From Candidatus Zixiibacteriota bacterium (lineage in GTDB: Bacteria; Zixibacteria; MSB-5A5; WJJR01; JAJRUJ01): 48,631 bases of DNA. The DNA is taken from contig JAGVQM010000025.1 in assembly GCA_020051695.1 (NCBI GenBank), forward strand, positions 1 through 48,631, in the 5' to 3' direction. Each line of letters starts with the position of its first letter. Position 1 is the first letter of the stretch. Below the pieces are notes generated by a model. That model saw only the letters and a program-made list of their open reading frames with translations. It was not told where the DNA came from and did not search any database. The position numbers and the translations under genes were made by a program. This document shows, in pieces, positions 21,847 through 35,118 of the stretch.

Positions 21847-24522
21847 ATGCCGCCGCTAAGCGCCAGCATAATTGAACGGCTGCTCGACCGGGTGCGCCGT
21901 CCCTCCCGGTATATCGGCGGCGAATTCCATCTCGTACGCAAGGACCCCGCAACACTCGGCGTGCGGATCTGCCTGGCGTTCCCCGAAGTGTATGAAATCG
22001 GCATGTCGCATCTGGGGCTGCGGATTTTATACGATGTGCTCAACCGGGATGCCGCCGTGTATGCCGAACGGGCGTTTTGTCCCTGGCCGGACTTGGAAAA
22101 ACTGATGCGGGAGGAAAATGTCCCGCTGTGGTCGCTGGAAACCCGCACGCCCCTGTCGGAGTTTGATCTCGTCGGTTTTTCCCTGCAATCGGAGATGATT
22201 GGCACCAACGTGTTGACGATGCTCGATCTGGCCGGGATACCGCTGTTGGCCGCCGATCGTGACAATTCTCATCCTTTGATCATTGGCGGCGGACCGGTTG
22301 CCTTCAATCCTGAACCGTTCGCCGATTTTTTTGATTGTTTTATCATTGGGGACGGGGAGACGGCGCTGCCGGAATTTTTGCGGGCGTTTCGCACTTTGGA
22401 GCTTCACCGACCCACCGCAAGCGGTGGGGCACCCTGTAGGACGAATCGCCGCGACATTTTGCACAGACTGTGCACCGGTGACGGCGTATACGTTCCTTCC
22501 CTATATCAGACTGAAACCGACACGAACACAGGGTTTACTATCATCCGGGATACCGGGGACGCCCCCTGTCCGGTCCGCCGGGCGCTGGTCGATGATCTTA
22601 CCGGCCATCCGTTCCCCACGCAGGTTCTGGTACCGCAGGGTGATATCGTTCATGACCGTTATGCCATGGAAATTGCCCGGGGGTGTACCGAGGGCTGCCG
22701 TTTCTGCCAGGCAGGGATCATTTATCGTCCCCAGCGCGAACGCCCGCCGCGCGAGATCATCAATTCCCTGGCTGCGGGTATCGACTGCACCGGCTATGAT
22801 GAGGCCTCGCTGACCGCGCTGTCCACCGCCGATTATACCGGGATCGAACAACTGGCCCGCGCAGCAATGACGGTCCTGGCCCCGCGCCATGCCGCCATGT
22901 CGGTTTCGTCGCTGCGGGCTTACGGCATCACCAAAGACCTCGCTGCCGGTATCGCCGGGGTCCGCAAGACCGGCTTCACCATTGCCCCCGAGGCGGGCAC
23001 CCAGCGGTTGCGCAACGTGATCAACAAGGGGATCACCGACGAGGATATCACTACTGCCGCGCAAATCGCTTTTAATGCCGGCTGGAAATTGCTCAAATTA
23101 TATTTTATGATCGGCCTGCCCACCGAGACCGACGAGGATGTTGCGGCGATTGCCGCGACCGCAATTCGGGTGCTGAAACTCTCGGCGGGCGCCAAAGGCC
23201 GGGCGCGGGCAAAGATCAATGTGGCCGTGGCTTCGTTTGTGCCCAAGCCCCATTCGCCCTTTGCCTGGGCGGCGTTCGATAATCCGGAGAATCTGAAACG
23301 AAAACAAAACCTGCTGCGATCACTGCTGAATCGTCATAAAAATATTCAAATCAAATTTCACAACGTGGAACAATCGACCCTGGAGGCGGTGCTGGCGCGC
23401 GGCGACCGCCGTCTGGGCCGGGTTCTGCACGCCGCCTGGATCGGCGGCGCGCGCTTTGATGAATGGACCGAGCATTTTCGGATGCCGATCTGGGAGAAAG
23501 CGTTCGCTTCGTGCAACATCGCTCCCGCGCAATATCTGGCGGAGTTCCCCCTCGAGGCCCGGTTGCCCTGGGACCATATCGACCCGGGGGTTGATCGGGA
23601 ATTCTTGCGGCGGGAATATCAGCGGGGTCTGGCGGGCAAATGTACTCACCCGTGCGAAAAACCGCCCGCCGGGACCGGGGCCGACGGCAAGCTGGTGTGT
23701 TATTCCTGCGGGCTGGCGTGTGATCTGGAGGCTATTGCCGGCCGCCGCGCGGATGGGGCACGGCAACTGCAGAAATTGACTCCACCGGTGGCCCAACATT
23801 TCCTGTCTCGGGCGATGGGCGGCGGCAACCACTCCCTGCGTTATCGGTTGTGCTATGGCAAAACCGGCTGGTCGCGGTATTTATCGCATCTGGAGGTTGT
23901 CCGGCTCTGGCAGCGGGCTTTCCGCCGGGCGGGGATTATCCTGCAACATTCAGCGGGATTCCATCCCCACCCCAGGTTATCGTTCGGCCCGGCGTTGCCG
24001 GTGGGTGTCGAGGGTTTATCCGAATACCTCGATTGCCATACCGTGGAATATGCAGTCCCGGAGCACATGCGGCGCGCGTTGACCAACGCCTTGCCCGACA
24101 CCTTCCCGTTGCACGATCTTCGTGAAATATCCCGCCACACCCCGGGCATCGAGAAACTGATTGATCTTCACCTTTATGAAATCAGTGGTCCGGTATCCTC
24201 CGGCGGCCTTGTCTCGCTCATCAACGAGAAAATCGCTGCCGAGACCTGGATAATTACCCGAAAAAAGGAACAAACCATGCGAAAACTGGACGCACGGCCA
24301 TATATTATCAGCGTGGAGGAAAAACTCGCGGACGGGTATTCACGAGTGGAATTGAAACTGAAAAGTATCGCGGGCGGCACAGTCAAACCCGGTGAGCTGC
24401 TCGAAGCCCTATACGGCGAAATTCCCGCCGGGACAAGGATTGTCCGGGTGGGGCTGGGCCGGGAAATCGCCGGGAAATTTGTCACTCCGCTGGATGAGGC
24501 ATGCCTGACAGTAAACGGGTGA
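21847..24522 (+). CDS. TIGR03960-type radical SAM protein fused to DUF2344 domain
   Basis: An 891-residue two-part protein. Residues about 40-180 form a B12-binding-like N-terminal domain (CLAFPEVYEIGMSHLGLRIL, then IIGGGPVAFNPEPFADFFD). The radical SAM core has its 4Fe-4S motif at Cys280-x3-Cys284-x2-Cys287 (ARGCTEGCRFC) and the downstream GTQRLRNVINKG and VASFVPKPHSPFAWA motifs. A cysteine-rich stretch (about 598-625, several CxxC) may bind metal. From about 662 comes the DUF2344 'radical SAM-linked' domain (LCYGKTGWSRYLSHLEV, HPHPRLSFGPALPVG). Both halves are widely conserved, often beside ribonuclease G and ribosomal protein genes, but the reaction is unknown; a role in RNA or ribosome modification is suspected. 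A palindromic insert occurs at codons 189-194. It overlaps mtaB by 22 bases. Confidence 0.88.
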   Translation: MPPLSASIIERLLDRVRRPSRYIGGEFHLVRKDPATLGVRICLAFPEVYEIGMSHLGLRILYDVLNRDAAVYAERAFCPWPDLEKLMREENVPLWSLETRTPLSEFDLVGFSLQSEMIGTNVLTMLDLAGIPLLAADRDNSHPLIIGGGPVAFNPEPFADFFDCFIIGDGETALPEFLRAFRTLELHRPTASGGAPCRTNRRDILHRLCTGDGVYVPSLYQTETDTNTGFTIIRDTGDAPCPVRRALVDDLTGHPFPTQVLVPQGDIVHDRYAMEIARGCTEGCRFCQAGIIYRPQRERPPREIINSLAAGIDCTGYDEASLTALSTADYTGIEQLARAAMTVLAPRHAAMSVSSLRAYGITKDLAAGIAGVRKTGFTIAPEAGTQRLRNVINKGITDEDITTAAQIAFNAGWKLLKLYFMIGLPTETDEDVAAIAATAIRVLKLSAGAKGRARAKINVAVASFVPKPHSPFAWAAFDNPENLKRKQNLLRSLLNRHKNIQIKFHNVEQSTLEAVLARGDRRLGRVLHAAWIGGARFDEWTEHFRMPIWEKAFASCNIAPAQYLAEFPLEARLPWDHIDPGVDREFLRREYQRGLAGKCTHPCEKPPAGTGADGKLVCYSCGLACDLEAIAGRRADGARQLQKLTPPVAQHFLSRAMGGGNHSLRYRLCYGKTGWSRYLSHLEVVRLWQRAFRRAGIILQHSAGFHPHPRLSFGPALPVGVEGLSEYLDCHTVEYAVPEHMRRALTNALPDTFPLHDLREISRHTPGIEKLIDLHLYEISGPVSSGGLVSLINEKIAAETWIITRKKEQTMRKLDARPYIISVEEKLADGYSRVELKLKSIAGGTVKPGELLEALYGEIPAGTRIVRVGLGREIAGKFVTPLDEACLTVNG
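22411..22428. repeat. Perfect 8-bp GC palindrome inside the radical SAM gene
   Basis: CCCACCGC (22411-22418), a two-base spacer AA, and GCGGTGGG (22421-22428). It encodes PTASGG at a point where the protein, from HRPTASGG to about LHRL, looks like an added loop between the B12-like and radical SAM domains. It may be a repetitive extragenic palindrome that landed in frame. Confidence 0.45.
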
Positions 24523-25799
24523 GTTTGTTCACGCTGGGTTGCCGGCTCAATCAGGCCGAGACCGCCCTGATCGCCGATTCGTTTCGCGCGCGCGGGTATG
24601 TCATCGTGCCGTTTGGCAAACCCGCCGAGGTCAGCGTGATCAACACCTGCTCGGTGACCGCCCATGCCGACGCCCATTGCCGCAACGCCATCCGCCGCGC
24701 CCGCAAGGTCTCGCCCGAGGGTGTCGTGGCCGCCGTGGGGTGTTATGCCCAGTCGGAGACCGCCGCGGTCAAAACCGTGCTCGGCGTCGATTATATCGTC
24801 GGCACCGACCGCAAATTGCAAATCGCGGCAATCATTGATGAAGGTGTTCGGCCGCCGGAACCCGAAATTTTCATCGAGCGCACACATACCAACGATCCTC
24901 TGGAATTCGACGCCGTCGGGTATTATCCCGAAGCGACCCGCGCCAATATCAAAATCCAGGACGGCTGCGATTTTAATTGCGCCTTTTGTGTGCTGCCCCG
25001 GGTGCGGGGGCGGGCGCGCTCGCGCCGCATGAGTGATATTATCCACGAAGCCGGGCAACTTGCGGCGCGGGGCCATAAAGAAATCGTTCTGGCCGGTGTC
25101 TGTATCGGCTCGTACAGTTCTGATGTGTTTACGATCGTCGATGTCGCCCGGCAAATCGCCGAAATCGACGCGGTCAAACGTATACGCATTTCCTCGATTG
25201 AACCAAGTACAGTAAGCGATGACCTGTTGTGCTGGATGGCCGATGCCGGGAAGGCCTGCCGCCATTTGCATATTCCGGTCCAATCCGGCGACAGCAAAAT
25301 CCTCGCCGCCATGCGCCGCGAGTATACACTTGATGATTTCAAGCGGTTGGTTGACCGGGCGACGACGCTGATGCCTGATCTTGGGCTGGGTACGGATATA
25401 ATGGTCGGCTTCCCCGGTGAGGGCGAGGCCGAATTCCAAAACACCGTGCGGCTGGTCGAGGAGCTGCCGTTTTCGTATTTGCACGTCTTCAGCTATTCCG
25501 ACCGCCCCAAAACCACCGGGTTGAAATTGCCCAATAAAAACGATCCCGAGACGATTAAAAATCGTTCGAATTTCATGCACGAGCTGGGTGAAAAGAAAAA
25601 GCGCGCTTTCGCCGAAAAACACATCGGCAAATCGGTCGAGGTCCTGGTCGAACGCCGCGATGAAAACGGGCTTTGGAATGGCTTTACCGGTCAGTATTTG
25701 AAGGTGTATTTTGAGGATGAAAGAGAATTTCAGAATTGCATGGTCGAGGTGATACCAACAAGTTACAATAAAGAAGTTTTGAGTGGGGAGGTCGGGTGA
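24501..25799 (+). CDS. mtaB: tRNA (t6A37) methylthiotransferase
   Basis: Adds a methylthio group to C2 of t6A at position 37 of ANN-decoding tRNAs, using two 4Fe-4S clusters and SAM. The 432 residues contain the UPF0004 domain with cysteines at 14 (FTLGCRLNQAE), 50 (VINTCSVTAHAD) and 81 (AVGCYAQ), and the radical SAM motif C156-x3-C160-x2-C163 (IQDGCDFNCAFCVLP). The CRLNQ and NTCSVT wording separates MtaB from MiaB. A TRAM-like tail follows. The start overlaps the radical SAM gene. miaB lies 1.8 kb downstream, so both 2-methylthio enzymes sit in one region. Confidence 0.93.
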   Translation: MPDSKRVSLFTLGCRLNQAETALIADSFRARGYVIVPFGKPAEVSVINTCSVTAHADAHCRNAIRRARKVSPEGVVAAVGCYAQSETAAVKTVLGVDYIVGTDRKLQIAAIIDEGVRPPEPEIFIERTHTNDPLEFDAVGYYPEATRANIKIQDGCDFNCAFCVLPRVRGRARSRRMSDIIHEAGQLAARGHKEIVLAGVCIGSYSSDVFTIVDVARQIAEIDAVKRIRISSIEPSTVSDDLLCWMADAGKACRHLHIPVQSGDSKILAAMRREYTLDDFKRLVDRATTLMPDLGLGTDIMVGFPGEGEAEFQNTVRLVEELPFSYLHVFSYSDRPKTTGLKLPNKNDPETIKNRSNFMHELGEKKKRAFAEKHIGKSVEVLVERRDENGLWNGFTGQYLKVYFEDEREFQNCMVEVIPTSYNKEVLSGEVG

Positions 25800-26429
25800 A
25801 TGTTGCATGACATATGTCTTAGTGTGGATGAGCGATCGAACGCCGTAGATTCACTGGAAAAATTCTGTGAGTTTGTGGAAAAGATCGAAGAAGACGAATG
25901 GAATCTGAAATGGGCAATTATTGCGGCAGACAATGCATTATATGGATTTATGATTTGTGCAATCAATTATTATTCATGTAATCCCAAATCAGTTGTTGAC
26001 CCGAGACGGTCCGGGGTGAGTAAGGAAAGTCTAAAAGTGGGAGCGCCGATTTCTATCCTTGACATAAATGAATGGAAAATGATCAGTTTTGAAGATGCTT
26101 TGAAAGAGATGATTCAATCGCCCTATTTGCGGATTTTAATCGACGAGAAGGATAAACAACAATTATTAATATTCCATAGAAATTTGCGTGGCCAATTCGA
26201 ACATTTCGTACCCATAGGGTTGGATCTTTATTATAGAGCGGCCGAGGGACCATTCAAAATAATCACGAAACTTATAAATAAGATAGTATGTGTTGATGGT
26301 GGAAGATCATTCTTTGCAATACATACTGGATTTGGACCATCTCCTTTGGAACCGCGCGTTAGGGCGGCACTAGAAAAATTATATTGTTCTTTGGGTGTAG
26401 AGGGAAAACCATTATCAAAAGATCAGTAA
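25800..26429 (+). CDS. AT-rich HEPN-like protein of unknown function
   Basis: A 209-residue protein with base composition clearly richer in A and T than every neighbour, suggesting lateral gain. The N-terminal helices (NLKWAIIAADNALYGFMICAIN at about 35-56) and a later R130-x4-H135 pair (FHRNLRGQFEHFVPIG) fit the arrangement of HEPN-superfamily proteins, whose RX4-6H motif cuts RNA and which occur in toxin and phage-defence systems. No partner antitoxin or nucleotidyltransferase gene lies beside it. The ATG overlaps the mtaB stop by one base (TGAATG) and is preceded by GGGGAGG, so it is well placed to be translated from the mtaB transcript. The family call is by pattern only. Confidence 0.5.
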   Translation: MLHDICLSVDERSNAVDSLEKFCEFVEKIEEDEWNLKWAIIAADNALYGFMICAINYYSCNPKSVVDPRRSGVSKESLKVGAPISILDINEWKMISFEDALKEMIQSPYLRILIDEKDKQQLLIFHRNLRGQFEHFVPIGLDLYYRAAEGPFKIITKLINKIVCVDGGRSFFAIHTGFGPSPLEPRVRAALEKLYCSLGVEGKPLSKDQ

Positions 26430-26447
26430 CGGGATGGGAGGATTAAA

Positions 26448-27542
26448 TTGATTTCCAGTGATTTCAACATCGCCCGTCTCTTCCGCGACGTGGTCGACCC
26501 GCAACGCGGTGAAGAGATCACCTTCATCATCGATCACCCGCATGGAAAAATGAAAGACAACGCCGCCTGGGCTGACCGGCGGCAAATGGCGGCCGACTGG
26601 TATGCGGGGATCAAAAACCTCTGCGCGGAGGTCGGCGCGGTATTGAATCCCATCGTCAGCTTTCCCGCCACCGGCGCGAATAATGCCGATTTGCCGGTGC
26701 ACGGCGAACAAAACGGCAGGCAGGTTGTCTTGCATGACATACTCAAAAACAGCAATGTCTGTTTTGCCCTGACCGAATACTCGGCCACCGCGCCGTTGAG
26801 CCGATTGACCGTCGATTATCCGACATTGCGCGCGGCGAGTTTACCCGGCGTGAATCGCGGGATGGAAAAAACCGCGCTCGCCGCGAATTACGCCCAGGTC
26901 GCCAAGTATGCCAATCTCCTGGCCGAACGGTTGAACCGCGCCGAAACGGCGCGAGTCGTCTTTTCCACCGGGCATGAATTTACGTTCGATTTGCGTTTTC
27001 GCACGGCGGACGTCGATGACGGGTATCTCCATGCCGACAAGACCGGCATGCGCGTGATCAACTTGCCCTCCGGCGAGGCCTGCATCGTCCCCTATGAGGG
27101 GGAACGAAAGGACGAACCCAGCCGCACGGCCGGGCAGCTTCCCGTGCAGTTAACCGGAGAGATCGCGGTCCTGAACGTCGAACATAATCGCATCATTGGC
27201 GCCGAGGGGGCAAGCGCTGAAGCGCAGGATTTGGTGATGACCATCCGCGCCGACCGCGCGCGGCAGAATATCGCCGAGCTGGGGCTGGGTTGCAATCCGT
27301 CGGCGGTGATCTCCGGCAAAGTCCTCGAGGATGAAAAAGTCGGCTTCCACTGGGCGTATGGCCGCAGTGAACACCTCGGCGGCGTGGTCGGCCCCGAACA
27401 ATTCGCCAAACCGGAAAACATCCTGCATGTCGATATTGTCTATGCCCGCGGCTGCCCGATCGGTGTCGTTTCATTAACCCTGACCTATCCGGATGGCGCC
27501 GAGGAGTTAATCATCAAAAACGGCGAATACACCGTATTTTAG
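26448..27542 (+). CDS. Putative M29-like metallo-aminopeptidase (AmpS/aminopeptidase T group)
   Basis: About 364 residues. Towards the C-terminus the metal-ligand pattern of this fold is visible: IAELGLGCNP, then KVLEDEKVGFHWAYGRSEHLGGVV and ILHVDIVYARGCP, where the H and D/E residues are the likely ligands. The same fold is used by leucyl aminopeptidases (M29) and by 2,5-dihydroxypyridine dioxygenase, so the reaction is uncertain. The start is TTG at 26448, with GGGAGG 7 bases upstream. It is GC-rich like the core genome, unlike the gene before it. Confidence 0.58.
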   Translation: MISSDFNIARLFRDVVDPQRGEEITFIIDHPHGKMKDNAAWADRRQMAADWYAGIKNLCAEVGAVLNPIVSFPATGANNADLPVHGEQNGRQVVLHDILKNSNVCFALTEYSATAPLSRLTVDYPTLRAASLPGVNRGMEKTALAANYAQVAKYANLLAERLNRAETARVVFSTGHEFTFDLRFRTADVDDGYLHADKTGMRVINLPSGEACIVPYEGERKDEPSRTAGQLPVQLTGEIAVLNVEHNRIIGAEGASAEAQDLVMTIRADRARQNIAELGLGCNPSAVISGKVLEDEKVGFHWAYGRSEHLGGVVGPEQFAKPENILHVDIVYARGCPIGVVSLTLTYPDGAEELIIKNGEYTVF

Positions 27543-27561
27543 ACGTCTCGACGAAACTCAC

Positions 27562-28878
27562 ATGCCCGAAGCAAAACCGACAGTCCGCCTGCTGACCTAT
27601 GGTTGCCAGATGAACGAGTACGACAGCGAACTGGTTGCGTCGCTGTTGGCGGAAAACGGGTATGTGCTGGTTGATGATCATCATCCCGCCGATATCATTC
27701 TTGTCAACACCTGCGCGGTGCGCGAATCGGCCAACACGCGGGTGTACGCCCAGCTCAGCCAGTGGACACACCAGAAAAAAGAACAGCCGGGCCTGATCGT
27801 CGGCGTGCTGGGGTGTATTCCGCAAAACCTGAAAGACGGCCTGCTCGAGAAATTTCCCGGCGTGGATTTTGTCTGCGGCCCCGACAGTTACCGCCGGCTG
27901 CCGGAATTGATCGCCCATGCCCGGGCCGGCGGCCATGAGGCCGCTGTCGATTTGTCCGAATACGAGACTTACTCGGATATCGCGCCGTTGCGTGTTCCCG
28001 GGGTCAACGCCTGGCTGGCGGTCATGCGCGGCTGCGATAATTTCTGTTCGTTTTGTGTGGTGCCCTTTTCGCGCGGCCGTGAACGATCACGCACCCCGGA
28101 AAGCGTGCTGGAGGAAACGCGGCAGTTGACCCGCGAGGGGTACAAACAAGTCACCCTGCTGGGGCAGAATGTCAATTCCTACCGCTCGGGTGACACAGAT
28201 TTTGCCGCATTAATCGGGCAGGTTGCCGCAGTCGACGGTATCGAGCGCGTGCGTTTCACCTCGCCGCATCCCAAGGATTTTCCCGAACATTTAATTGAAG
28301 TTATCGCCGCCAATCCGCGTATCTGTTCACATATCCATTTCCCGCTGCAGGCCGGGGCAGACCGCATTCTCAAATTGATGAACCGGGGTTATACCCTCGA
28401 CGATTTTCTGCGGCTGGTCGAAATGATGCGCGCCAAAATCCCAAATCTGGCGCTGACTACTGATATCATCTGCGGTTTTCCCACCGAGACCGACGCTGAT
28501 TATCAGGAAACAGTACGGGCGGTAAGCACGGTGGAATTTGATTCGGCGTTCATTTTCAAGTATTCCGAGCGGGAGGGGACCCCGGCGGCGAAACGGTATC
28601 CCGATGATGTCCCCGATGACATCAAATCCGAGCGGGTCACCCGGCTGGTCGCGCTGCAACGGGAGATTTCCGCAACGAAGAACCGGGCAATGATCGGTCA
28701 AACTGTTCGTGTGCTGATCGAGGGTTTCTCCAAAAAATCCCCTGCTGTCCTGCGCGCGCGCACCGACAGCAATAAAATCGTGTTGTTTCCCACGGCCCCC
28801 GGTCTTGCAGTCGGTGATTTCTGTGATGTCCGCATCTCCGAAGTCACGCCGAACACCTTGTTGGGACAGGTCGTGTGA
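27562..28878 (+). CDS. miaB: tRNA-2-methylthio-N6-isopentenyladenosine37 synthase
   Basis: Converts i6A37 to ms2i6A37 in tRNAs that read codons starting with U. The 438 residues carry UPF0004 cysteines at 15 (TYGCQMNEYDSE), 51 (VNTCAVRESA) and 85 (GVLGCIPQNL), then the radical SAM triad C158-x3-C162-x2-C165 (MRGCDNFCSFCVVPFSRGRE), the SPHPKDFPEHLIE and HFPLQAGADRILKLMNRGYT segments and a C-terminal TRAM domain. The QMNEYDSE wording identifies MiaB. The SRP RNA promoter begins 50 bases after its stop. Confidence 0.96.
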   Translation: MPEAKPTVRLLTYGCQMNEYDSELVASLLAENGYVLVDDHHPADIILVNTCAVRESANTRVYAQLSQWTHQKKEQPGLIVGVLGCIPQNLKDGLLEKFPGVDFVCGPDSYRRLPELIAHARAGGHEAAVDLSEYETYSDIAPLRVPGVNAWLAVMRGCDNFCSFCVVPFSRGRERSRTPESVLEETRQLTREGYKQVTLLGQNVNSYRSGDTDFAALIGQVAAVDGIERVRFTSPHPKDFPEHLIEVIAANPRICSHIHFPLQAGADRILKLMNRGYTLDDFLRLVEMMRAKIPNLALTTDIICGFPTETDADYQETVRAVSTVEFDSAFIFKYSEREGTPAAKRYPDDVPDDIKSERVTRLVALQREISATKNRAMIGQTVRVLIEGFSKKSPAVLRARTDSNKIVLFPTAPGLAVGDFCDVRISEVTPNTLLGQVV

Positions 28879-28928: not shown

Positions 28929-28957
28929 TTGCCTGTCTCGCTGGAATATTGTATACT
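28929..28957 (+). promoter_or_regulatory. Sigma-70-type promoter of the SRP RNA gene
   Basis: -35 TTGCCT (28929-28934), a spacer of exactly 17 bases, and -10 TATACT (28952-28957). Transcription should begin near 28964, ten bases before the first helix of the RNA. Confidence 0.8.
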
Positions 28958-28973
28958 CTCTTCGGGAAATTTG

Positions 28974-29243
28974 GCCTGTGCTAGGCGGGGAGCCAGCGGT
29001 GCCCTGTACCCGGAATCCGCTATACCGGGGCCGAATTCCCGCCCGAGGTTTGTCGGGTGCGTTCGTAGGAGCCGTTCGTGTGGTGCTGACGACCGGGTCC
29101 CACGCAATGGGCAGCCACCAAACCCCGTCAGGACCGGAAGGTAGCAGCGGTAGGTGAGTTTGTTCGTGTGCCGTGGGCTCGCCCGGTAAGAGCCGGGCGG
29201 CGGCCACCGCGAGGGTGCCGGAATCGACGGCGGGTGCACGGGT
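28974..29243 (+). ncRNA. ffs: Signal recognition particle RNA, large bacterial type with Alu domain
   Basis: About 270 bases. The S domain holds the universal Ffh-binding loop at 29127-29146 (GTCAGGACCGGAAGGTAGCA) and is closed by CCGGGTCCCACG (29093-29104) with CGTGGG...GCCCGG (29172-29186). The 5' part is the Alu domain of the Bacillus-type RNA: GTGCTAGGCGGGGAG, then AGCGGTGCCCTGTACCC, AATCCGCTATA and GGGGCCGAATTCCCG. The 3' end (CGACGG..GGTGCACGGG) pairs with the 5' end (GCCTGTGC). A T-run follows at 29247-29254. It is the RNA core of the particle that hands membrane and secreted proteins to FtsY. Most Gram-negative bacteria have only the short 4.5S form. Confidence 0.93.
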
Positions 29244-29346
29244 CATATTTTTTTATCTGATATTCGCTTGCCTTTGTCTCACTGTGAGTTGTACCCTATG
29301 GCGGAGTCGAACAGGAATGAAAAAGAGTCAAGGATGGAGACAATAT

Positions 29347-30162
29347 ATGAAACTCGTCTTGGGTGGTACATATATTCTGTTGCTGTGCGGCATGTTGCTG
29401 GTTTCCTGCGGCCCCGGTGCTGATGATCATTGGCAGCAATATATCGCCGCCGGCTCGACGGAATTATCCGCCAGCCGTTTTGGCGTTGCCGAAAGTCTGT
29501 TGACCGCCGCCTGGGACATCGCCCAAACCTTTCCCGACGATGACTCGCGGCGGGATGTCACGCTGACCAAACTGGCCCAGGCCACGTCCTCCCTGGGCAA
29601 ATATGATGAGGCCATTGCGTTATACCGGCTGCTGTTGCCGCGTGACGAAGCCAAATACGGCACGGAATCCGTCGAGGTGGCCCGCCGGCTAAATACCATC
29701 GGCATCCTCTGTGACTGGCGCGCGCGATACGACGAATCCAAAGTATGCTATCACCGGGCGATCTCCATCCTCGAAGATAAACTGGGGCCGGAGCACGAGG
29801 AGGTCTACCATTTGCTCCGACGGCTGGGTGCGGTCTATCGACTGACCGGTTTTTTTGAGGAAGCCGAACCGTTCTACCTGCGCGCTGTCGAAATTCGGGA
29901 AAAGTTGAACCGGCCTTACGATGAAAGTCTCCTCGGCGATCTGGCGCTGCTGGCCGAAGTCTACATCCTGCAGGAGGACCTCGCGGCGGCCGAACCGCTG
30001 TATCGGCGGATCCTGAAGACCCGCGAGGAGGCCCTGGGGCCGGATGACCCGCAAGTGGCGGCCGCGCTGGAGAACCTGGCCGAATTGCTGCGCAATATGG
30101 GCCGCAACAAAGAAGCCGACCGGCTCACTGCGCGAGCAGAGTCTATCCGCGGACAGTTATAG
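29347..30162 (+). CDS. Lipoprotein with kinesin-light-chain-type TPR repeats
   Basis: A 271-residue exported protein. The ATG at 29347 has GGAG about 7 bases upstream and starts a lipoprotein signal (MKLVLGGTYILLLCGMLLVSC), with Cys21 as the lipid site; longer upstream starts would run into the SRP RNA. The mature part carries about four or five TPR units of some 42 residues, the later ones with the kinesin light chain wording (LNTIGILCDWRARYDESKVCYHRA, then LLRRLGAVYRLTGFFEEAE, LALLAEVYILQEDLAAAE, LENLAELLRNMGRNKEADR). Such repeats form protein-protein docking surfaces in the periplasm. Partner unknown. Confidence 0.85.
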   Translation: MKLVLGGTYILLLCGMLLVSCGPGADDHWQQYIAAGSTELSASRFGVAESLLTAAWDIAQTFPDDDSRRDVTLTKLAQATSSLGKYDEAIALYRLLLPRDEAKYGTESVEVARRLNTIGILCDWRARYDESKVCYHRAISILEDKLGPEHEEVYHLLRRLGAVYRLTGFFEEAEPFYLRAVEIREKLNRPYDESLLGDLALLAEVYILQEDLAAAEPLYRRILKTREEALGPDDPQVAAALENLAELLRNMGRNKEADRLTARAESIRGQL

Positions 30163-30307: not shown

Positions 30308-32569
30308 ATGAAAAACGGTGCCTTCATTTCCTGTGTCTACCTCGGTTTTTTTTCACAGGTAGCGCAGGTCATTATCCTGCGGGAAACATTGGCCGCATTT
30401 GCCGGTGTGGAGATGGTCCTCGGCCTGACTCTGGCTGTCTGGCTGCTGGCTGTCGGTGTCGGCGGTTATGCCGGGAACAGACTTCCCGTGCGGGTCAGCC
30501 CTCGGGCTGACCGATCTACCGGCGAGGGAACATATCAAGCCGTCGGAATTCTATTCGCCATTGCCGGGGTATTGCTGCCGTTGACAGTCATGGCCATCCG
30601 CCAATTGCCGGCCATCTTCAATTTCGCCCCCGGCGAGATCATGGGCGTCGGGGTCTCCCTGCTTGGTGCCCTGCTGACTATCTCGCCGTTATGTTTGGTG
30701 TTGGGGTTGTTGTTCACCGTTAATGCCCGGTTATTCGCGCATGAGGCGCAGACCTGGGTGGGGCAGGCCTATCTTCTCGAAGCCGCCGGGGCGGCAGCAG
30801 GCGGACTGGTCGTAACATTCATCCTGTTGCCGTTTTCCTCCGACCTCGTGGTGACCCTGGGCTTGATCCCGCCGACTATCGGGATCATTGTCGTGCTCAG
30901 GGGCCGGATGAGTTTATTTTATGCAATCCGCTTGTTTTTCCTGACAGCCATCTGGTTTATCTTCGCCGCAAATTTCGGCCCGATCGCGCGTTTTGACCGT
31001 GCGACACGGGCAATCAATCGCGCAGTGGGCGAGGTCGTGGCCGTGGCCGATTCCCCGCACGGCCAACTGGCGGTGACCCGTTATGTCGACCAATACAGCT
31101 TGTTCGTCAACGGCACGTTGTCCTCGTCTTATCCCGATCAACTTTCTGCCGAGGAAGCCGTGCATTTTGCCCTGTTGTCGCATCCCGCGCCGCAATCAGC
31201 GCTGCTGATCGGCGGCGGGACCGGCGGCGCACTGGGGGAGATGCGCAAGCATGGGGTATCCGTTGATTATGTCGAACTCGATCCGCGCCTGATCGAACTG
31301 GCCCGCGACAATTTCCCCGGCACGGTGACTCGTGAATTTGCCGATTGCCGAATCATCACCGGGGATGGCCGGGCGTATCTCGCGCAGACCGGTGTCCGCT
31401 ATGATGTAATTGTACTCAACCTCGGCGAACCGTCCACGGCGATGGTCAACCGCTTTTTCACCCGGGAATTTTATGCGCTGGTGAAAGACCATCTCACACC
31501 CACAGGCGTGTTTTCGTTTCGGGCAGTTTCCGCCGAGGAGTATATCAGTCCTGAACGCGGCATGTTTCTTTCAACATTATATAAAACACTAAAAGAAGTT
31601 TTTTCGAAAATCGTTGTCCTGCCCGGCCGGACTAATATTTTTATCGTCGGCAATGATGCGGTGAAGCTCATCAGTCGGCCGGAACAGTTTGCGGCCCGGT
31701 TGCAGGAACGCGGTATTCATACCAGCTTCGTCAACGAGTCCATGTTGCCGTTCCGGTTGACTCCGGCGGCCAGCGAATATCTCGGCCAACAGCTGAATAT
31801 TCCGGAAGCCGGATTGAATACCGACCGGCAGCCGCTGTGTTATTATTACAATTCCATTTTATGGAGCCGCCAGTTCACGGGGCGAAGCGCAACGAGTCCG
31901 TCGTTTATTACCAGTCTTTCGCCCCCGGTCCTGATCGCGGCGGCGCTGGTCTTTTTTGTTCTGGTCCTGCTTGCCTGTTGGCTCACCCGATCGGGCAGCA
32001 GCGTGCCGTTTATTTTTTCTCTTTTCATCTCCGGAATGACCGCGATGGCCATGGAAATCGTCCTGCTCTATTGTTTTCAGGTCTATCTGGGGCATATCTA
32101 TGCCAAGATCGGTGTGCTGGTTGCTTGTTTTATGGTCGGCATGAGTCTCGGCTCGTATCTGTTCAACCGCCGCGTGCAGGTCAGCCCGTCTATTCTTATA
32201 CTTGGTCATATCGTCCCCGCTGTTTTGATGGCGGGTTTTCTGGGCTGCACGACGCTCTGTTCCGCCGGGTCGCTTTCCGGGGCCGTTGTTGAGCTGCTCT
32301 TTTATCTGTTTTCATTGTTGTTCGGTGCGGCAGGGGGTGCATTGTTTATTGTGGCCAACCGTTTGTACATGCTGCGTCTCTGTAGTGCGGGTGCGGTACC
32401 GGTCGGCACCGGCTATGCCGTCGATCTCGCTGGTTCGGCGCTGGGCGCCTTGGTGGTTAGTTCTCTGTTGCTTCCGGTCTGGGGCATCGCGCAAACCATC
32501 TGGCTGCTGGCGGCATTGAATCTGATTGTCATATTCATCGTATCGCTATTTGGCAGAATCCAAAAGTGA
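30308..32569 (+). CDS. Membrane-embedded spermidine-synthase-like protein
   Basis: About 753 residues in three blocks. Residues 1-225 hold about seven membrane segments. Residues about 290-500 form a soluble aminopropyltransferase-like methyltransferase-fold domain (SALLIGGGTGGALGEMRKHG, VDYVELDPRLIELARDNF, ITGDGRAYL, YDVIVLNLGEPSTAMVN). Residues about 530-750 contain six or seven more membrane helices. This fused arrangement occurs in many bacteria; whether it makes polyamines is not established. The canonical spermidine-synthase acidic pair corresponds here to LGEPS, where the usual aspartate D-x-x-D pattern is not evident, so classic catalysis is doubtful. The start is the ATG at 30308, chosen because the longer frame overlaps the TPR gene. 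Confidence 0.75.
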   Translation: MKNGAFISCVYLGFFSQVAQVIILRETLAAFAGVEMVLGLTLAVWLLAVGVGGYAGNRLPVRVSPRADRSTGEGTYQAVGILFAIAGVLLPLTVMAIRQLPAIFNFAPGEIMGVGVSLLGALLTISPLCLVLGLLFTVNARLFAHEAQTWVGQAYLLEAAGAAAGGLVVTFILLPFSSDLVVTLGLIPPTIGIIVVLRGRMSLFYAIRLFFLTAIWFIFAANFGPIARFDRATRAINRAVGEVVAVADSPHGQLAVTRYVDQYSLFVNGTLSSSYPDQLSAEEAVHFALLSHPAPQSALLIGGGTGGALGEMRKHGVSVDYVELDPRLIELARDNFPGTVTREFADCRIITGDGRAYLAQTGVRYDVIVLNLGEPSTAMVNRFFTREFYALVKDHLTPTGVFSFRAVSAEEYISPERGMFLSTLYKTLKEVFSKIVVLPGRTNIFIVGNDAVKLISRPEQFAARLQERGIHTSFVNESMLPFRLTPAASEYLGQQLNIPEAGLNTDRQPLCYYYNSILWSRQFTGRSATSPSFITSLSPPVLIAAALVFFVLVLLACWLTRSGSSVPFIFSLFISGMTAMAMEIVLLYCFQVYLGHIYAKIGVLVACFMVGMSLGSYLFNRRVQVSPSILILGHIVPAVLMAGFLGCTTLCSAGSLSGAVVELLFYLFSLLFGAAGGALFIVANRLYMLRLCSAGAVPVGTGYAVDLAGSALGALVVSSLLLPVWGIAQTIWLLAALNLIVIFIVSLFGRIQK
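30493..30512. repeat. GGTCAGCCC palindrome inside the membrane spermidine-synthase-like gene
   Basis: GGTCAGCCC (30493-30501), TC, then GGGCTGACC (30504-30512), a perfect 9-bp inverted repeat. The same arms occur at 33521-33540 in an intergenic hairpin cluster with a two-base difference only in the spacer. Here it sits in a cytoplasmic or periplasmic loop and encodes VSPRADR. Confidence 0.6.
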
Positions 32570-33500: not shown

Positions 33501-33590
33501 ACGGGAACCGTTCCCGTGCCGGTCAGCCCCTGGGCTGACCGAAAACTGATGCTGTGTAAAAGCACAACGGGAACGGCGACTACCGTTCCC
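33501..33590. repeat. Cluster of GC-rich palindromes between sixA and the ammonia-lyase gene
   Basis: Three hairpins in 90 bases. First, ACGGGAAC (33501-33508) with GTTCCCGT (33510-33517). Second, GGTCAGCCC (33521-33529) with GGGCTGACC (33532-33540). Third, GGGAACGG (33569-33576) with CCGTTCCC (33583-33590), which spans the stop codon of the lyase gene. The first and third share the GGGAACG core. The arrangement is like repetitive extragenic palindromes; the third may serve as the terminator for the lyase gene. Confidence 0.6.
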
Positions 33591-35118
33591 ACTTCAACGA
33601 CAACGGTCCCAGCTCCGTCTCGATACGGTTCAGGATCGTATTATGTTCCACCAATTGGCGGATCTTTTCGATATCAGGATACAACACCCGGTCGTCCTCC
33701 AGATGCGTGACGACCTTGCGGATTTCTTCATAGGCGATCTGGGTTCCCGCGCCGGGTTTCTTGGGGGCGCGGAAATCAAAGGCCTGCGCGGCAGCCATCA
33801 TCTCGATGGCAATCACCGCGCGGACATTGCGCATGATCTCGCCCAGTTTGCGCACCGCGATGGGGCCCATTGATACGTGGTCTTCCTGATCAGCGGAAAC
33901 CGAAATCGAATCCACCGACGCCGGATGCGATAGCACCTTGTTTTCGGAAACCAGCGCGGCGGCGGTATACTGCGCCACCATCAAGCCGGAATTCAAGCCG
34001 CGTCCCTCTACCAGGAAATCGGGCAAACCGGAGAGGACGGGGTTCATCAGCCGATTGGTATGGCGCTCACTCAAATCGGCGATTTCGGACATCGCAATGG
34101 CCAAAAAGTCGGCGACCAGCCCGATGGGCTGGCCGTGGAAATTTCCACCGGCCAGATGCGCGTGATCATCGGCAAAAAACAACGGGTTGTCGGCGGCGGC
34201 GTTGATTTCAATCTCCACCTGTCCACGGGCATAAAACAGGGCATCGATGGACGGGCCGATCACCTGCGGCGTGCAGCGCAGGGAATAACCGTCCTGCACC
34301 TTGCCGCTTTTATCGGCGATGATTTCGGAATCTTCAATCAGGCGGCGGATAATTGCCGCGACCGCATTTTGCCCATTATAGGGACGAGCGCCATGCAGAC
34401 GGGCATCGAAGGCCTGGGGCACCGATTTAAGCGCGTCGATGGTCATTGCGCCGGCGATAATCGCGTTTTTAATCAGCCGCTCCGCATCATGGATCAACAG
34501 GGCCAGACCGCCGGTCATCATCTGCGAGCCGTTGATTAAGCCCAGACCTTCTTTGAACGAAAGGGTAATCGGCTGCAATCCGGCGCGTTTCATCGCCTGC
34601 CCGCCGGGCATTCGTTCGCCCTGATACCAGGCCTCACCCTCGCCCAAAATAACCTCGGCCAACTGGGACATGGGGGAGAGGTCCCCGGATGTGCCTACTG
34701 AACCTTTTTCGGCGACGATGGGGATCACCCCACGGTTAGCCATCTCAATATAAGTTTCCAGGATGCTGGAACGGACGCCGGAATACCCCTTGGACAGCAC
34801 ATTGGCGCGGATGGCCATTGCCGCCTTGACCACCTCCGGCGGAAACGGTTCGCCGGTCCCGGCGGCATGGGAATAGATAATCCGTTTCTGCAATTCCGAA
34901 CCCTGTTCGGGGGAGACCCGGATGCGCGCAAACTCGCCGATCCCGGTCGTCACTCCATAAATTGCCTCACCGGAGCTGACCATATCTTCGATGACCGCAC
35001 GGCAGCGGTCGACCTGTTTTTTACCTTTGGCCGACAATGCGATTCTGGCGCCGCCCCGGGCGATTTCGTGGATCTGTTCGATAGTCAGGTTATTGCCGTC
35101 GATCTGGATTTCCGACAT
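33580..35118 (-). CDS. Aromatic amino-acid ammonia-lyase (HutH/PAL/TAL family) with Thr-Ser-Gly at the MIO site
   Basis: Lyase of 512 residues that would release ammonia from histidine or an aromatic amino acid through an MIO electrophile. The cofactor normally forms from Ala-Ser-Gly; here it is T143-S144-G145 (GSVGTSGDLSP). The first active-site loop, usually YGxNTGFG, reads YGVTTGIG at 54-61. His84 (YSHAAGTG), the R/Q segment VQDGYSLRCTPQVIGP (274-289), INAAADNPLF, GGNFHGQP and QEDHVSMG are retained. His84 argues against a pure phenylalanine lyase. No hut genes are near, so histidine breakdown is not supported by context. The ATG at 35118 has a good ribosome site (AGGAGG) upstream. Substrate undecided; I give no symbol. 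Confidence 0.88.
   Translation of the reverse strand: MSEIQIDGNNLTIEQIHEIARGGARIALSAKGKKQVDRCRAVIEDMVSSGEAIYGVTTGIGEFARIRVSPEQGSELQKRIIYSHAAGTGEPFPPEVVKAAMAIRANVLSKGYSGVRSSILETYIEMANRGVIPIVAEKGSVGTSGDLSPMSQLAEVILGEGEAWYQGERMPGGQAMKRAGLQPITLSFKEGLGLINGSQMMTGGLALLIHDAERLIKNAIIAGAMTIDALKSVPQAFDARLHGARPYNGQNAVAAIIRRLIEDSEIIADKSGKVQDGYSLRCTPQVIGPSIDALFYARGQVEIEINAAADNPLFFADDHAHLAGGNFHGQPIGLVADFLAIAMSEIADLSERHTNRLMNPVLSGLPDFLVEGRGLNSGLMVAQYTAAALVSENKVLSHPASVDSISVSADQEDHVSMGPIAVRKLGEIMRNVRAVIAIEMMAAAQAFDFRAPKKPGAGTQIAYEEIRKVVTHLEDDRVLYPDIEKIRQLVEHNTILNRIETELGPLSLKWER

Follow-up and report, generated by a model that had tools for sequence, protein, structure and literature searches.

An Alu-bearing large SRP RNA from a diderm Candidatus Zixiibacteriota genome, and probable repeated loss of the Alu domain within the phylum

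In Bacillus subtilis, the Alu domain of the SRP RNA docks at the factor-binding site of the ribosome and blocks elongation (PMC8137916, PMC8881573), and structural work describes helix H1 as the element that stiffens the bacterial Alu RNA, with no SRP9/14 involved (PMC8137916). The Alu form has been assigned mainly to Gram-positives (PMC4359368, PMC8137916). Reviews likewise present the domain as a trait of Gram-positives. One question raised is whether it is a primitive feature that most bacteria have lost (PMC2905702), another how bacteria lacking it compensate, with Shine-Dalgarno-like pauses proposed as a substitute (PMC4359368). The SRP RNA of Thermotoga maritima, a bacterium with an outer envelope, also bears an Alu domain (PMC1586193).

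Here, we analyzed a 48,631-nucleotide stretch of DNA (the window) from a Candidatus Zixiibacteriota genome. An Rfam scan of the whole window returned one match, the large bacterial SRP RNA family RF01854 (Bacteria_large_SRP) at 28976-29241 on the forward strand, with a score of 168.5 bits (gathering score, 60 bits), an E value of 1e-27, and all 256 positions of the model covered (1-256). The features of the locus, all on the forward strand, are as follows.

27562 to 28878, +: upstream gene miaB (TIGR01574, 480 bits)
28929 to 28934, +: -35-like hexamer TTGCCT, with TTG-N3 kept in the order
28952 to 28957, +: -10-like hexamer TATACT, order-wide TATA(A/C)T
28974 to 28981, +: terminal helix H1, 5' strand, pairing with 29236 to 29243 (MFE fold; end pairs covary in 81 relatives)
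28976 to 29241, +: SRP RNA gene of the bacterial large type, with Alu and S domains (RF01854)
28987 to 29005, +: Alu helix H3 and loop L3 (RF01854 alignment; GGGG/CCCU pairs in 81/81 relatives)
28995 to 28999, +: L3 side of the pseudoknot, AGCGG
29005 to 29007, +: UGU motif between H3 and H4, near-invariant in 81 relatives
29009 to 29029, +: Alu helix H4 and loop L4 (RF01854 alignment; pairs in 81/81, rare double changes)
29017 to 29021, +: L4 side of the pseudoknot, CCGCU
29038 to 29234, +: helix 5 (central helix) and S domain (RF01854 structure; many double changes)
29091 to 29191, +: S domain alone, as matched by the small SRP family (RF00169)
29124 to 29151, +: helix 8 apex with GGAA tetraloop, the established Ffh-binding motif, near-invariant in 81 relatives
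29236 to 29243, +: terminal helix H1, 3' strand (MFE fold; covariation)
29248 to 29254, +: T run 3' of H1, probably an intrinsic terminator whose stem is H1
29347 to 30162, +: downstream TPR lipoprotein gene from its true start (Pfam TPR families; ribosome-binding site, lipobox, same start in the relative G124)

RF01854 outscores the other families of its clan at this position, and the small SRP family covers the S domain only, with 71.6 bits. The full-length match above the gathering score is accompanied by H1, by H3 and H4 with their pseudoknot and the UGU motif, and by the S-domain apex. The identity of the RNA as an Alu-bearing large SRP RNA, proposed by an earlier sequence-only reading, is certain for practical purposes. 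The outcome which that reading had named as refuting, a score for the small SRP family alone, did not occur. A genome-wide search for a second SRP RNA found none, leaving this gene as the sole one found. In common with the B. subtilis scRNA (6S SRP RNA, RF01854), the window RNA has H1-H5, the UGU motif, a five-pair loop-loop pseudoknot, an S domain without helix 6, and a length of about 270 nt. Unlike in B. subtilis, the host is a diderm of the FCB group and the gene lies between miaB and the TPR lipoprotein gene. T. maritima, which in the control set also gives an RF01854 signal (its standing relative to the cut-off is not given), differs from the present host in being a thermophile of another phylum. 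The 4.5S RNA of E. coli (RF00169) shares the S domain and the Ffh-binding apex but, unlike the window RNA, is devoid of H1-H4 and most of helix 5. Overall, this is an unremarkable, typical representative of a known family; what is less expected is the host.

We aligned 81 full-length sequences from the phylum and counted the model structure on them. Of the 98 pairs of the model, 84 are standard in the window RNA and 64 show at least one double change among the relatives. The terminal helix consists of eight pairs in the MFE fold; the H1 of the model (28976-28981 with 29236-29241) is lengthened by the pairs G28974-U29243 and C28975-G29242, which bears out the terminal pairing foreseen from the sequence, where the 3' strand had been placed at 29235-29243. 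The ends of H1 covary, with 36 double changes at pair 1-266 and 29 at pair 2-265, as does the H2 pair 10-56 (AU in 52 sequences, GC in 27). The pairs of helix 5 covary clearly, while the middle of this helix is poorly aligned. The pseudoknot strands of L3 and L4 are complementary in all 81 sequences, with a G-U variant in two; these five pairs are nearly invariant, and they show conservation and hardly any covariation. Five continuous loop-loop pairs correspond to the extended pseudoknot form of bacteria and archaea (PMC8137916). The MFE fold recovers H1, H3, H4, helix 5, and the apex, and its energy z-score of -0.69 does not distinguish it from shuffled sequences, so support for the fold comes from the covariance model and covariation, not from energy.

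Upstream of the RNA, the two hexamers form a sigma-70-like promoter, and transcription most likely starts near 28964. The sequence-only reading had called this promoter perfect; the 17-nt spacing holds, whereas the hexamers match only 9 of 12 consensus bases. The arrangement of TTG-N3, 17-18 nt, and TATA(A/C)T recurs upstream of the RNA in all nine members of the order examined, with drifting spacer sequence. At the other end, the T run noted earlier was found as seven Ts 3' of H1. A terminator scan limited to loops of 3-8 nt gave no report at this run. As the Ts follow H1, this helix may serve as the terminator stem, and from the sequence transcription probably ends there.

It had also been suggested that an open reading frame at 29173-30162 overlaps the RNA and could cause it to be missed by annotation. 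The frame exists mechanically, but the real gene begins at ATG 29347, beyond the RNA: this codon is preceded by GGATGGAG, the lipoprotein signal MKLVLGGTYILLLCGMLLVSCG opens there, and in a genome of the same family (G124) the orthologue, also 3' of the SRP RNA gene, starts at the matching place. The stretch 29173-29346 is therefore a spurious 5' extension, and the overlap an artefact of choosing the longest frame. The true start rules out the overlap as a cause of missed annotation, and the score of the RNA, well in excess of Rfam's curated cut-off, should let routine annotation find it.

The miaB gene closes a cluster of three radical-SAM genes at 21847-28878 (a TIGR03960/TIGR03936 fusion at 21847-24522, MtaB at 24501-25799, and MiaB), in which the intervening frames at 25800-26429 and 26448-27542 match no Pfam or NCBIfam family. 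Farther downstream lie a membrane protein with a spermidine-synthase domain, of the fused MFS/spermidine synthase type (30308-32569; the frame is listed from 30044, and its 5' end is probably too long), and hutH, encoding histidine ammonia-lyase (33580-35118, - strand, 629 bits). In many Zixibacteria, the SRP RNA gene lies directly 3' of tRNA-Ala (CGC) (loci L128-L134, L007, L018, L173, L178, L185, and L194), and at several of these loci it is 5' of a DnaX-like frame beginning MSYQVLALKYRP or similar. In the order of the window, the gene is placed elsewhere, here adjoining miaB.

MiaB has its best named relatives, at 70% and 64% identity, in Candidatus Zixiibacteriota, which belongs to the FCB group. 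Seven Omp85-family matches in the genome are in keeping with a diderm. Both the diderm host and its unusual standing for the Alu form were thus rightly recognized from the sequence, the literature giving this form mainly to Gram-positives (PMC4359368, PMC8137916). The genome encodes one full-length Ffh (589 bits) beside rpsP, rimM, trmD, rplS, and rnhB, these neighbors being named from their sequences.

These observations suggest the following model. The RNA (28974-29243) would be transcribed from its own sigma-70-type promoter, probably up to the T run. Its S domain is predicted to bind Ffh, given the gene and the motif, and H1 together with the five-pair pseudoknot of L3 and L4 closes its Alu domain. 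By analogy with B. subtilis, the Alu domain most likely docks in the factor-binding site of the ribosome while Ffh holds the signal sequence, and docking would slow elongation pending contact with FtsY and the translocon, presumably with no need for a dedicated Alu protein. Alu-mediated translational arrest in this Zixibacterium is plausible on the same analogy. As a whole, the explanation (a sole SRP RNA with its own promoter, an S domain for Ffh, Alu docking as in B. subtilis, and an ancestral Alu domain with losses) appears to us very likely.

One alternative is that the Alu domain needs a protein such as HU in order to work, a role proposed for HBsu in B. subtilis; the sequence-only reading had taken the domain to imply translational arrest or an HU-like/SRP protein partner. 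Binding of HBsu to the Alu domain of B. subtilis has been reported (Nakamura 1999, as cited in PMC4359368), and the window's genome has two HU/IHF genes. In the phylum, however, 126 of 132 genomes have HU/IHF, whether they are Alu-plus or Alu-minus; among the 18 that lack the Alu domain, 17 have HU/IHF, and the remaining one, G073, is 68% complete. HU/IHF was therefore rejected as a correlate of the Alu domain. The pattern of an HBsu-type partner, with HU present alongside the Alu domain and absent without it, was not seen, and no HBsu-specific link was found, while co-occurrence of this kind is compatible with binding. Because HU does not track the domain, and because H1 rigidifies bacterial Alu RNA without protein (PMC8137916), the implied partner is unsupported and obligate dependence on one seems unlikely.

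To look at compensation where the domain is lost, we sampled about 200 kb per genome from three Alu-minus and three Alu-plus genomes and counted Shine-Dalgarno-like sites at codons 16-36 of multi-spanning membrane proteins. In this preliminary and weak comparison (about 50 proteins per group, crude gene starts, and one pair strongly different in G+C), the Alu-minus genomes showed no enrichment (43 sites observed versus 50.3 expected), and the Alu-plus genomes had 53 versus 42.9. This preliminary, underpowered result gives no support to compensation for Alu loss by Shine-Dalgarno-like pauses.

Looking for the same form in relatives, as the sequence-only reading had proposed, we searched 132 genomes of the phylum. 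An SRP RNA match was present in 111 of them: 93 have the Alu form and 18 lack it. The 93 comprise 92 full-length matches and G107, which has the 5' half of the Alu domain followed by a stretch of N and was counted as the Alu form. The Alu-less RNAs (G001-G004, G008-G009, G060, G065-G071, and G072-G075) have the S domain and a shorter stem, and they resemble E. coli 4.5S RNA, some keeping a longer stem. For the 21 genomes without a match, many of them incomplete and some with masked stretches, no absence is claimed; in G107, G025, and G119 (loci L139, L157, and L193), stretches of N start within the SRP RNA or immediately behind it, so some apparent absences may reflect masking.

On an Ffh tree of 54 genomes, the distribution requires five state changes, a number that stays at five from the 5th to the 95th percentile of bootstrap trees, and at least four of these changes are forced by strongly supported branches. 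Given parsimony and the Alu form in neighboring phyla, we read the changes as losses. On this reading the Alu form, probably ancestral in the phylum, gave way at least four or five times to the short S-domain form, and such losses imply that some relatives can do without the domain. One pair with both forms belongs to a single genus: G060 has the short RNA (L140) and G059 the long one (L161) at the same syntenic locus, the contigs being collinear with an offset that predicts the position of the RNA. The two share the inner helix 5 and the 3' flank (AAA..AAAGCCTC), while in G060 neither strand of the stem retains the Alu half, and the closing stem GUGACAG/CUGUCAC is left. Contamination as the source of the short RNA in G060 was excluded by the synteny with G059 and by its Ffh placement.

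Neighboring phyla were represented by samples whose group labels (e.g. KSB1, Krumholzibacteriia) are each that of a single member genome. Both the KSB1-phylum and the Krumholzibacteriota-phylum samples were mixed: among the 82 genomes of the former, matches were full-length in about 51 and shorter in about 19, and the 58 genomes of the latter gave 20 full-length matches and one cut by a contig end. In the Calditrichota and Nitrospirota samples, no match exceeded about 101 bits, and only short forms were seen. It is quite improbable that the Alu domain was instead acquired horizontally from a Firmicute or Thermotoga relative: its 5' part is indeed near the Rfam consensus, but the domain occurs across most sampled families of the phylum, H2 and H5 hold many lineage-specific double changes, and the KSB1-phylum and Krumholzibacteriota-phylum samples are Alu-bearing as well. 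The weakest alternative, a small SRP RNA (the S domain does score by itself) with the Alu part as a chance extension, is practically negligible, being already refuted by an Alu part nearly unchanged in 81 relatives and at odds with the score of the full-length model.

With ancestry and loss as the preferred reading, the Gram-positive/Gram-negative dichotomy of the Alu domain likely fails, several diderm phyla of the FCB group being probably Alu-bearing from their ancestors on and the domain having been lost repeatedly, once within a genus. Our literature search found no paper on repeated Alu losses in these diderm phyla; older surveys (Regalia 2002, Rosenblad 2009) lie outside its coverage, and no priority is claimed. 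The informative part is this distribution in diderm phyla and not the RNA itself. Matched comparisons become possible in a diderm phylum that has the two forms, a number of independent losses, and a same-genus, same-locus pair, G059 and G060; if the reading is true, these natural pairs with and without the domain would allow tests of what the bacterial Alu domain is for.
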